Assembly (NCBI RefSeq): GCF_008831305.1
Contig: NZ_ML708610.1
Location: 248,001-312,000, forward strand
Source: Kocuria coralli
GTDB lineage: Bacteria > Actinomycetota > Actinomycetes > Actinomycetales > Micrococcaceae
Length of the DNA stretch: 64,000 nt
Direction of reading: 5' to 3'
Part shown: positions 47,968-60,538 of the stretch, piece by piece
How the letters are laid out: every line of letters starts with the position of its first letter
Position numbering within the stretch: position 1 is the first letter of the stretch
The notes under the pieces: generated by a model
The model's database searches: none
What the model saw: the letters and a program-made list of their open reading frames with translations, nothing else
What the model was told of the DNA's origin: nothing
Made by a program: the position numbers and the translations under genes

Positions 47968-48040
<73 letters not shown>

Positions 48041-48219
48041 ATGCCGTGGCTATTGGCCACGGCCGTAGACAGTACCACATTCCTGCGCTGGCCGTTCACG
48101 CCCGTTTCAGGGTGATGAGGTCAGAGAATGCCGTCCTGTCGGCTGCTCGAGCCGCGACAACGATCAGGAAGTCTACGCTTTCGGGCGGCGGCCGTCCATT
48201 CGCGGCGGGGCCGTGTGGG

Positions 48220-48240
48220 GTGTCTCACGATGTGAAACAC
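48220..48240. promoter_or_regulatory. Inverted repeat, candidate operator upstream of the ilv leader
   Basis: GTGTCTCAC-gat-GTGAAACAC: 8 of 9 positions are symmetric. It lies 12 nt before a TTGACA (48253-48258) that is probably a -35 box; the -10 is unclear. IclR-type regulators (LtbR/NdgR) control leu/ilv genes in other actinobacteria, but assignment here is a guess. Confidence 0.45.
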
Positions 48241-48281
48241 AGTGACCGCTGTTTGACACCGGTCTGCGCACGGCGGAGCAT

Positions 48282-48356
48282 ATGAGCATGCAGTGCATCA
48301 CGTCAGGTATCGCCGTCGTCGTAGAGCCGGTCGTCCTTCTTGGGCGACGGGCCTGA
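48282..48356 (+). CDS. ilv leader peptide (attenuator peptide)
   Basis: Short open frame of 24 codons: two Ile, five Val and two Leu codons, with runs Val-Val-Val (48315-48323) and Val-Val-Leu-Leu (48330-48341). GGAG at 48275-48278 is 9 nt before the second Met codon (48288), which may be the true start, giving 22 residues. Position, composition and the following hairpins fit a ribosome-mediated attenuator sensing branched-chain aminoacyl-tRNAs for ilvB-ilvN-ilvC. Confidence 0.8.
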   Translation: MSMQCITSGIAVVVEPVVLLGRRA

Positions 48357-48413
48357 CGCCGCATACCAGCGCGCACCGGGCCCCGATAGCCGCCCCATCC
48401 GGCGGCCGGGGCC
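48330..48413 (+). promoter_or_regulatory. ilv attenuator hairpins
   Basis: Hairpin 1: arms 48330-48336 and 48342-48348, formed over the Val-Val-Leu-Leu codons. A possible antiterminator pairs GGGCC (48349-48353) with GGCCC (48379-48383). Terminator: arms 48379-48385 plus 48389-48394 with 48401-48413, followed by TTCTTCGTG. A ribosome stalled on the regulatory codons would prevent hairpin 1 and change which of the later structures forms. The exact switch needs folding analysis. Confidence 0.65.
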
Positions 48414-48584
48414 TTCTTCGTGTCCGGCCCACAGCCAGGCGCGTCAGGTACGCAGGGGGCCTTTGCGATCATCGGCATTCGCGGCAAGGACGTCCGGGAT
48501 CATCCCCGGAACCCACCCGGTCGAGGCAAGCAGTGCAGCCGGAAGTAGTGACTTTCACCGATCGATTGAACTGAAGGACGCGAG

Positions 48585-50486
48585 ATGAGTAAGGGACAGT
48601 CCATCAGCCCCGCGTTGATGGCTAACAAGCGGACGGGATCACCCGTCGAGCGCCGCACGTCCACTGAAGCCCACGGTGTGGTGCTTCCGGAGGTCCCGGG
48701 AGCCAACCAGGTCGTCGACCCCGTCCCCATGACGGGTTCCCAGGCTGTCATCCGATCGCTCGAAGAACTCGGGGTGACCGACATCTTCGGCCTGCCCGGT
48801 GGTGCCATCCTGCCCACCTACGACCCTCTGCTGGAGAGCACCAGGATCAACCACATCCTGGTGCGCCACGAGCAGGGGGCGGGCCACGCCGCGCAGGGGT
48901 ACGCCATGGCCACCGGCCGCGTCGGCGTGTGCATCGCGACCTCGGGCCCGGGCGCGACGAACCTGGTGACGGCCCTGGCCGATGCCAACATGGACTCCGT
49001 TCCCATGGTGGCCATCACGGGGCAGGTCGCCTCGACCCTCATCGGCTCGGACGCCTTCCAGGAAGCCGACATCGTGGGCATGACCATGCCTATCGTCAAG
49101 CACTCCTACCTGGTGACCGATGCTCAGGACATCCCCCGGGTGCTCGCCGAGGCCTTCCACCTGGCCTCGACGGGGCGTCCCGGTCCGGTCCTCGTCGACA
49201 TCGCCAAGGACGCGCAGGTCGGCCCGATGGAGTTCTCCTGGCCGCCGGTTCTGGAGCTGCCCGGTTACCGCCCGGTGGCGCGGGGGCATTCCAAGCAGAT
49301 CCGCGAGGCCGCCCGTCTCGTGGCCCAGGCGCAGCGCCCGGTCCTGTACGTCGGGGGCGGAGTGGTCAAGGCCGACGCCTCGGCCGCGCTGACCGAGCTG
49401 GCCGAGGTCACGGGGGCTCCCGTGGTGACCACGCTGACCGCGCGCGGGGTGTTCCCGGACTCCCACGAACAGCACCTGGGCATGCCCGGGATGCACGGAA
49501 CGGTGCCCGCCGTCTACGCGATGCAGCAGTCGGATCTGCTGGTCACCCTGGGGGCGCGTTTCGACGACCGCGTGACGGGGGTGCTGTCCACGTTCGCTCC
49601 CGGTGCCAAGGTGATCCACGCCGACATCGACCCGGCGGAGATCTCGAAGAACCGCGTCGCCGATGTGCCGATCGTGGGTGATCTGGCCTCGATCATCCCC
49701 GAGCTCACGGAGGCTTTCCGGGGTGAGACCGAGGCCCAGGGCGCCCCCGACCTCACGGAGTGGTGGCGTGTGCTGCGCGGACTGCGCGACTCCTACCCGC
49801 TGGGGTGGACCTCGACCGCCGACGGTCTGCTGGCCCCCCAGTACGTCATCCAGAAGATCTCGGAGCTCACGGGGCCGGAGGCCTGCTACGTGGCGGGTGT
49901 CGGCCAGCATCAGATGTGGTCCGCGCAGTTCATCAAGCATGAGCGTCCTCGCCAGTGGATCAACTCCGCGGGCCTGGGGACCATGGGATTCGCCGTCCCC
50001 GCGGCCATGGGAGCGCAGGTCGGACAGCCCGACCGTACCGTGTGGGCGATCGACGGCGACGGCTGCTTCCAGATGACCAATCAGGAACTGGCCACGTGCG
50101 CGCTGAACAACATCCCCATCAAGGTCGCGGTGATCAACAACTCGTCCCTGGGTATGGTCCGCCAGTGGCAGACCCTCTTCTACGACGGGCGCTACTCGCA
50201 CACCCACCTCGACACCGGGCACGAGTCCCGCCGGATCCCCGACTTCGTGAAGCTGGGCGACGCCTACGGGTGCGCCACGTTCCGATGCGAGCGCGAGGAG
50301 GACGTCGAGGCGACGATCAAGGCCGCTCTCGAGGTCAACGACCGCGCGGTGGTCATCGACTTCGTGGTATCGGCCGACGCCATGGTGTGGCCCATGGTGC
50401 CCTCGGGCGTGTCCAACGACCAGATCCAGATTGCCCAGAACATGACCCCCGAGTGGGTCGGCGAAGACGAAGGAGCAGGCGCATGA
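48585..50486 (+). CDS. ilvB: Acetolactate synthase, large catalytic subunit
   Basis: ThDP-dependent condensation of pyruvate (or pyruvate plus 2-oxobutyrate), first common step to Val, Leu and Ile. It has 633 residues: [16 protein letters not shown] with the ThDP-activating Glu, FAD-binding [10 protein letters not shown], and the ThDP motif [17 protein letters not shown]. The N-terminal 45 residues before the core are polar. ATG at 48585 follows GAAGGA. The stop overlaps ilvN (ATGA). Confidence 0.97.
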
Positions 50487-51019
50487 GCCGCCATACGCTG
50501 TCAGTGCTGGTCGAGGACAAACCCGGCGTTTTGACTCGTGTTGCCGCGTTGTTCGCGCGCCGTGCCTTCAACATCGACCAGCTGGCCGTGGGAAACACCG
50601 AGGTGCCGGGACTCTCGCGGATCACCGTCGTCGTCGACGTCCAGGGCGATGCCCTGGAGCAGGTCACCAAACAGCTGAACAAGCTCATTCACGTGATCAA
50701 GATTGTGGAACTGACACCGGAGACCTCGGTGCAGCGCGAGCACATCATGGTCAAGGTCCGCGCCGACGCCGCAACCCGGCTGCAGGTCACCCAGGCCGCG
50801 GACCTGTTCAGGGCCTCGATCGTCGACGTCTCCACCGACTCGGTCGTGATCGAGGCCACGGGCGCCACCGAGAAGATGAGGGCTCTACTCGACGTCCTCG
50901 AACCCTTCGGTGTCCGCGAGATCGTCCGGGCCGGTACGCTGGCGCTCGGACGTGGGCCCAAGTCGATGTCCGACCGGGCACTGCGCCACGGAGATCCGCT
51001 TTCGTACCCGAGGGCCTAG
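50483..51019 (+). CDS. ilvN: Acetolactate synthase, regulatory subunit
   Basis: Activates IlvB and confers valine feedback inhibition. It has 178 residues: an N-terminal ACT domain ([32 protein letters not shown]) and the usual second half ([35 protein letters not shown] region). Translationally coupled to ilvB by a 4-nt overlap. ilvC follows after 95 nt. Confidence 0.96.
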
Positions 51020-51063: not shown

Positions 51064-52143
<1,080 letters not shown>

Positions 52144-60083: not shown

Positions 60084-60156
60084 GGCCCCATCGTATAGCG
60101 GCCTAGTACTCCGCCCTCTCACGGCGGCAACACCGGTTCGAATCCGGTTGGGGTCA
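60084..60156 (+). tRNA. tRNA-Glu (anticodon CTC), copy 1
   Basis: 73 nt; acceptor GGCCCCA/TGGGGTC (one G.U), anticodon arm CCGCC-CTCTCAC-GGCGG gives CTC, T-loop GTTCGAATC. No CCA encoded. First of three identical copies. Confidence 0.96.
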
Positions 60157-60274
60157 CTCCGCTACTGTTTCCCGGCATCATCGGTGCCGGGAAACTCTGC
60201 TGAAAACCGTGCATCGTTCGGATGCACGACCGGTGGATGATCCACCACCTCCCGGTCCTGCCGGGAAACTCCTC

Positions 60275-60347
60275 GGCCCCATCGTATAGCGGCCTAGTAC
60301 TCCGCCCTCTCACGGCGGCAACACCGGTTCGAATCCGGTTGGGGTCA
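60275..60347 (+). tRNA. tRNA-Glu (anticodon CTC), copy 2
   Basis: Identical to copy 1, 191 bp downstream. It follows a spacer containing four hairpins, so it may be processed from a common precursor. Confidence 0.96.
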
Positions 60348-60465
60348 CTCCGCTACTGTTTCCCGGCATCATCGGTGCCGGGAAACTCTGCTGAAAACCG
60401 TGCATCGTTCGGATGCACGACCGGTGGATGATCCACCACCTCCCGGTCCTGCCGGGAAACTCCTC

Positions 60466-60538
60466 GGCCCCATCGTATAGCGGCCTAGTACTCCGCCCTC
60501 TCACGGCGGCAACACCGGTTCGAATCCGGTTGGGGTCA
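60466..60538 (+). tRNA. tRNA-Glu (anticodon CTC), copy 3
   Basis: Identical to copies 1 and 2. The repeat ends 5 nt after the gene and a different, stronger hairpin (60548-60581) follows. Confidence 0.96.

Follow-up and report, generated by a model that had tools for sequence, protein, structure and literature searches.

Upstream of the ilvB, ilvN and ilvC genes of Kocuria coralli, in the 64,000-nt stretch of DNA analysed here (the window), a 544-bp gap separates ilvB from a minus-strand tRNA gene (47968-48040) and contains, in this order, a dyad, a TTGACA, a GAGCAT, a leader ORF, a 7-bp hairpin in the 3' half of that ORF and a strong bulged hairpin (Table 1). The start of ilvN is approximate: in the ORF 49955-51019, its family match sets in at residue 178. 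The covariance models of Rfam release 15 gave no match at the gathering threshold in the ilvB upstream region, the best being rydB (E 0.84, 15.7 of 50 bits), and a riboswitch or other known RNA family before ilvB was rejected on the lack of an Rfam match. Elsewhere in the window, three tRNA genes at 60084, 60275 and 60466 (60084-60538) have identical scores and a constant 191-bp spacing, which gives them the look of tandem copies.

Table 1. Features of the ilvBNC locus, in window coordinates.
Feature	Position	Strand	Basis or remark
Dyad GTGTCTCACGATGTGAAACAC, predicted NdgR/LtbR (IclR-type) site; core 48222-48238	48220..48240	.	Matrix from relatives
-35 element TTGACA	48253..48258	+	Promoter arrangement in 72/79 leaders
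-10 element GAGCAT, 17-nt spacer	48276..48281	+	Ends 6 nt before ATG 48288; arrangement in 72/79 leaders
Leader ORF MQCITSGIAVVVEPVVLLGRRA (then stop), predicted leaderless	48288..48356	+	22 codons, 9 Ile/Val/Leu
Candidate control codons Val-Val-Val(GTA)-Glu-Pro-Val-Val-Leu(CTT)-Leu(CTT)	48315..48341	+	Stall scan; rare-codon enrichment
Anti-antiterminator hairpin P1, 7 bp	48330..48348	+	RNA folding
Antiterminator left arm GGGCCUG (last leader codons and stop)	48349..48355	+	Folding; well conserved in Kocuria alignments
Antiterminator right arm CGGGCCC	48377..48383	+	6 nt in common with terminator left arm
Intrinsic terminator hairpin, 14 pairs, 3-nt bulge, then UCUUCGUGU	48378..48414	+	-29.2 kcal/mol; similar position in relatives
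ilvB, acetolactate synthase large subunit	48585..50486	+	NF005860, 1082.9 bits (cut-off 881)
ilvN, acetolactate synthase small subunit	50486..51019	+	NF008864, TIGR00119
ilvC, ketol-acid reductoisomerase	51115..52143	+	NF004017, TIGR00465

An earlier, sequence-only reading of this DNA had placed a leader frame with nine Ile/Val/Leu codons at 48282-48356 in the gap, and the frame is indeed present (MSMQCITSGIAVVVEPVVLLGRRA, then stop) and is more than chance would give: when a leader was defined as an ATG/GTG ORF of 10-40 codons with at least eight Ile/Val/Leu among its last 15 residues, one turned up in 7 of 5000 dinucleotide-shuffled versions of the 544-bp gap. The frame holds 24 codons if read from ATG 48282, as had been proposed, or 22 from ATG 48288, and the second start, giving MQ..., is probably the correct one because the promoter TTGACA-17-GAGCAT, whose TTGACA had also been pointed out, ends 6 nt before it. 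By the same spacing, the transcript is predicted to start at about 48288, at or beside the leader ATG, and the leader mRNA therefore to be leaderless; the GGAG at 48275-48278 is unlikely to matter as a Shine-Dalgarno sequence if transcription begins there.

The same arrangement recurs widely among the relatives. Leaders were called in 79 of 129 ilvB upstream regions across all taxa (126 of the 129 distinct in their last 400 nt), a few of them wrong or doubtful ORFs (e.g. L046, L051, L104), and 72 of the 79 have TTGACA-like and.A...T elements, 17-19 nt apart, 6-8 nt before an in-frame ATG or GTG. The distance from the -10 element to the leader start is 6 nt in 51 of these 72, 7 nt in 20 and 8 nt in one, a clustering that is partly imposed by the promoter rule, which allowed 4-9 nt, scored 6 nt best and required at least four of six -35 matches. 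MQ is the commonest beginning (29 of the 72, with VQ in a further 10, 39 together). A consensus scanner run over 48040-48600 reported neither promoter nor terminator at its thresholds, which are too strict here. That it shows no sigma-70-like promoter beyond the terminator is a weak test, since the conserved promoter escaped it as well.

Conservation of the leader frame in close relatives, a check that the sequence-only reading had itself proposed, proved complete within the genus: the leader and the same promoter are found in all 26 same-genus genomes read upstream of ilvB, the window's own genome included (L001-L025, L126; a 27th, G020, matched ilvB only weakly and was left out). A terminator was called 18-35 nt past the leader stop in 25 of the 26, that of L006 being missed by the rule requiring a tail of at least four T. 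Across the wider set, a looser rule recovered a branched-chain amino-acid (BCAA) ORF behind a promoter in 10 more regions (L035, L052, L054, L055, L089, L093, L102, L106, L115 and L122, of which L115 is doubtful) and gave a better ORF than the first call in L046 and L051. In the Microbacteriaceae, no BCAA leader follows the promoter in any of the 29 loci that extend 700 nt or more upstream (our own tally, made partly from titles; L081 and L107 were too short), and in L070 and L104 a hydrophobic ORF is present but the promoter is not. An ilvD-like C-terminus was noted by eye, seemingly shortly upstream of ilvB, in some Microbacteriaceae (range L057-L110), which suggests leader loss with a change of operon structure. 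Two assemblies titled as Sporosarcina beigongshangi and a Proteobacteria MAG (L052, L058) carry ilvB loci and leaders of Micrococcaceae and cellulomonad type, and are probably mislabelled or mis-binned.

Upstream of the promoter lies the dyad that had been read, together with the TTGACA, as a sign of a second, transcription-factor layer. A matrix built from 16 distinct sites in 24 same-genus relatives, with the window's own ilvB site excluded, gives 27.0 bits at 48222 and at most 9.1 anywhere else in the 64-kb window; in a 5-kb piece around leuC its best match (20.3 bits; next place 4.1) falls between leuC and a divergent IclR-family gene, both just beyond the window end, with leuC at window coordinate ~65210. 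In five of the 24 (L016, L017, L023-L025), the left half of the site is shifted or weak. A pattern search of the own genome, which returned two perfect matches, was discarded as circular, the pattern having been fitted to both sites; the matrix is the unbiased test. Separately, two strong NdgR-like matrix matches of 18.6 and 17.6 bits were seen ~192 bp apart in L141 (~1500 and ~1693; G000:C2:315355 and 315547), flanked by what we take, from translations, to be a uracil phosphoribosyltransferase gene and a winged-helix regulator gene. Because the relatives' matrix also matches the iclR-leuC intergenic region, the dyad is most likely an NdgR/LtbR site. In S. coelicolor, NdgR is reported to bind before ilvB and at ndgR-leuC (PMC4340878), and the Kocuria arrangement is like the NdgR/LtbR regulon as described (PMC4340878, PMC8222616) in having a palindrome both before ilvB and between the regulator gene and leuC, with the regulator divergent from leuC. 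The Kocuria dyads span 17 nt (GTCTCAC-NAT-GTGRRAC), whereas the S. coelicolor NdgR motif is given as 15 bp.

The RNA of this region is predicted to be unusually structured, the fold of 48288-48420 having an energy of -69.1 kcal/mol as against -54.2 (sd 4.3) in 200 shuffles (z -3.5). Hairpin P1 is present as the sequence-only reading had drawn it, and in the ribosome-free fold it is extended to 48306-48367 and hides the left antiterminator arm. The 13-bp bulged terminator with a T-rich tail that had been placed at 48379-48413 stands as a hairpin, one position longer at either end and with 14 pairs including a closing G-U, but its U-tract (CUUCUUCGUGU) is poor. The predicted alternative pairing is longer than the 5 bp claimed, with seven contiguous base pairs (GGGCCUG:CGGGCCC) and a few further pairs. 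The window duplex by itself lacks significance, since 13 of 200 shuffled leader ends pair equally well; the corresponding figures are 179, 141 and 198 of 200 for L003, L004 and L005. The 53 leaders together have a median of 9 of 200, and 27 of them give 10 or fewer. As judged from sequence comparison, support for the putative antiterminator is thus carried by conservation and not by the window duplex alone, and within Kocuria no clear two-sided compensatory change was seen in it in alignments inspected by eye.

Folding with a stalled ribosome, another check that had been proposed, gave the proposed switch in simulation. For each leader codon in turn, the transcript was trimmed to a point 13 nt beyond the middle of that codon (the part removed being held by the ribosome or cut off upstream of it) and the remainder was folded to 48398, a point at which the left arm of the terminator is out and the right arm is not yet. 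The mean pairing probability (P) of GGGCCUG:CGGGCCC was 0.93-1.00 for every ribosome position between Val 48315 and Val 48333 inclusive, 0.67 at the first Leu (48336), 0.02 at the second (48339) and 0.00 from the Gly to the stop, the last outcome being nearly automatic because the ribosome there covers the left arm; for the whole RNA without a ribosome it was 0.01. This profile points to the Val runs and the first Leu as the likeliest regulatory codons. Pausing ahead of the Val run gave P of 0.18-0.99, so Val is not alone in producing the antiterminator effect. In the full-length RNA the terminator was the more stable structure in each of the four states computed; its margin was 12.2 kcal/mol with no ribosome and 1.8-3.2 kcal/mol where the upstream RNA was left out, and antitermination must therefore be kinetic. 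Across 53 distinct leaders (four of 57, L006, L053, L128 and L129, were unscored for want of a terminator within 60 nt), the helix was on (P of at least 0.5) at some I/L/V codon in 51, the failures being L005 (maximum P 0.30) and L118 (0.24). Without a ribosome, 29 of the 51 fell below 0.5 and 22 remained on; a ribosome-free OFF state is therefore not general.

The codons themselves are also unusual. Among leader Val codons, 57 of 215 are GTA, as against 57 of 2744 in ilvB genes, and among leader Leu codons 42 of 108 are CTT, as against 70 of 2149, the leaders being poor in GTG and CTG; these counts compare 52 distinct leaders with the first 1750 nt of ilvB genes, and pool related species that are not independent. 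In the window leader both Leu codons are CTT, as against 2 of 117 in ilvB, ilvC and metG.

The locus thus has an I/L/V-rich leader, a terminator before ilvB and, in silico, an antiterminator exclusive of that terminator and a choice between the two by ribosome position, and the claim of an amino-acid attenuator before ilvBNC is upheld in kind by the conservation and by the modelled stalls. We conclude that it is very probably a ribosome-mediated transcription attenuator of ilvBNC with an upstream transcription-factor layer. An NdgR/LtbR-type regulator would bind 48222-48238 and modulate the promoter of the leader transcript. With branched-chain aminoacyl-tRNAs plentiful, the ribosome would reach the stop codon (48354) and cover GGGCCUG, and the terminator would form. 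With Val-tRNA scarce (or Leu-tRNA, at the first Leu codon), it would stall on Val-Val-Val or Val-Val-Leu; the 3' part of P1 would then be free, GGGCCUG would pair with the emerging CGGGCCC, and the left arm of the terminator would be taken before the right arm exists, the polymerase reading on into ilvB. In the absence of a ribosome, the extended P1 would hide GGGCCUG and the terminator would again form. The evidence for the attenuator in this analysis consists of the conservation of the leader, the promoter spacing, the terminator and, in most Kocuria, the pairing, together with the rare codons and the simulated order of structures; we infer translation of the leader, its leaderless start, termination, the response to amino acids and the identity of the regulator.

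Comparison of the helices across lineages sets Kocuria apart. In all 17 distinct Kocuria leaders scored (L006 fell outside this scoring), the longest helix between leader and terminator shares 6-16 nt with the terminator left arm, being GGGCCUG-like (GGGCCUG:CRGGCCC) in 13 and of a different but likewise overlapping kind in L007, L009, L010 and L012, whereas in 34 of 36 distinct non-Kocuria leaders the helix merely abuts the terminator, sharing 0-2 nt (the exceptions being L078, with 5 nt, and L119, with 22 nt and a terminator that is probably miscalled). Outside Kocuria the end of the leader pairs with the terminator base in what we group here as a GCGC helix, with 25 distinct helices among 41 eligible leaders; it is absent in three (L047, L049, L050), which were dropped, and the remainder are repeats and were merged. 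The window leader does not have this form, GGGCCUG:CGGGCCC standing in its place. The GCGC helices keep their pairing through changes on both sides (one position, for example, is C-G in 17 and T-A in 8): at +4 to +7, 93 of 100 cells are paired as against a permuted mean of 74.3 and maximum of 83, and at +4 to +9, 121 of 150 as against a mean of 93.8 and maximum of 109, none of 1000 right-arm permutations reaching the observed pairing for either range, with counts biased upward in that helices were picked per sequence for complementarity and GCGC was obligatory.

Many of the ilvB leaders encode a recurrent R-x-A end, and three groups of them stop earlier yet keep the nucleotides of the helix arm: L003, L004 and L005 have TGA just before CGGGYCTG, L046 and L052 have VVIS followed by TAG CGC GTG AC, and L093 and L122 have LVLP followed by TAG CGC GC. 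The R-x-A end is therefore better seen as a feature of the RNA than of the peptide. We put forward as a tentative scheme, somewhat less probable than its opposite, that most actinobacterial ilvB leaders are non-classical, with a covarying GCGC helix flush with the terminator, that Kocuria has converted this helix to an overlapping antiterminator, and that R-x-A is a by-product of the helix. Since the GCGC helix does not overlap the terminator, it would have to act by polymerase contact, stacking or kinetics. The folds give no account of how an abutting helix would prevent termination.

Systems of this kind are on record. A leader and terminator before ilvB were predicted in 2005 in Corynebacterium, Mycobacterium and Streptomyces (PMC1262725), and the Corynebacterium predictions were extended in 2023 (PMC10272879). 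For C. glutamicum, the ilvBNC attenuator is reported to have been mutation-tested in 2025, with mutations at the equivalent site changing valine production, a transcript start one nucleotide from the leader start codon and a GCC trinucleotide common to both hairpins, the authors using the term 'fast' attenuator (PMC11857589). As far as these accounts go (PMC11857589, PMC10272879), the window resembles the C. glutamicum system and the ilvB-II motif in its BCAA-rich short ORF at or beside the transcript start, in an antiterminator and a U-tailed terminator that precede ilvB, with a hairpin lying over the leader ORF, and in having CUU and GUA, proposed as control codons there as here. It differs from them in leader length (22 aa, as against usually 15-17 aa; PMC11857589, PMC10272879) and from C. 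glutamicum in that only GCC is shared at the hairpin bases there (PMC11857589), whereas 6 nt are shared through GGGCCUG:CGGGCCC in the window. The M. tuberculosis ilvB1NC attenuator, studied in 2026 (PMC13236596), is described as likewise having a uORF (with LVVI as control codons), an antiterminator masked by a ribosome at the stop codon and an intrinsic terminator; a short terminated transcript and experimental support are reported for it, whereas the window attenuator is predicted only. Streptomyces ilvL/ilvBHC (PMC8079986, PMC1262725) offers a short peptide with a similar R-x-[AG] end, a terminator and ilvB downstream, the S. lividans IlvL MRTRILVLGKRVG being leaderless by RNA-seq (PMC8079986). 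In S. coelicolor, replacement of the candidate ilvB codons is reported to have left regulation unaffected (PMC1262725), unlike the codon sensing proposed for the window. Within the open-licence literature we found no published description of a Kocuria ilvB leader peptide, nothing by title on an Arthrobacter ilvB attenuator and no paper on NdgR together with a leader peptide.

The S. coelicolor result lends itself to another explanation, namely a constitutive or growth-rate attenuator in which leader translation matters (through coupling or polymerase pausing), the specific Val/Leu codons are not sensors and amino-acid control falls mainly to an NdgR-like factor; an NdgR-like site is conserved in Kocuria, and NdgR is reported to bind at S. 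coelicolor ilvB (PMC4340878, with the codon replacements in PMC1262725). We regard this as unlikely for the window: I/L/V runs and the rare GTA and CTT codons are kept just where stalling frees the antiterminator arm, and the data reported for C. glutamicum (PMC11857589) and M. tuberculosis (PMC13236596) favour attenuation. We give still less credence to a nascent-chain arrest peptide acting through its conserved R-x-A end; a C-terminal I/L/V-rich run followed by R-x-A or similar does recur across many families, but the earlier stops described above abolish that end while preserving its nucleotides, and in non-Kocuria leaders those nucleotides form the helix with two-sided changes. Nor is there much chance that the ORF is fortuitous, the terminator that of another transcript and the ilvB promoter further downstream, a reading with which the silent consensus scanner and the weak U-tract would agree; such an ORF is too rare in shuffles (7 of 5000), and the leader is kept in all 26 same-genus genomes read and beyond.

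On this weighing, the window element is well supported and belongs to a class already known, ordinary but for a minor evolutionary departure in its antiterminator. It extends the known branched-chain amino-acid attenuator to Kocuria and combines at one locus an NdgR/LtbR-like site with a leader ORF predicted to be leaderless and with a switch at the terminator. The lineage comparison accounts for the conserved R-x-A end as RNA structure, and the question of how a helix abutting a terminator controls it becomes testable, with Kocuria as the natural overlapping variant.
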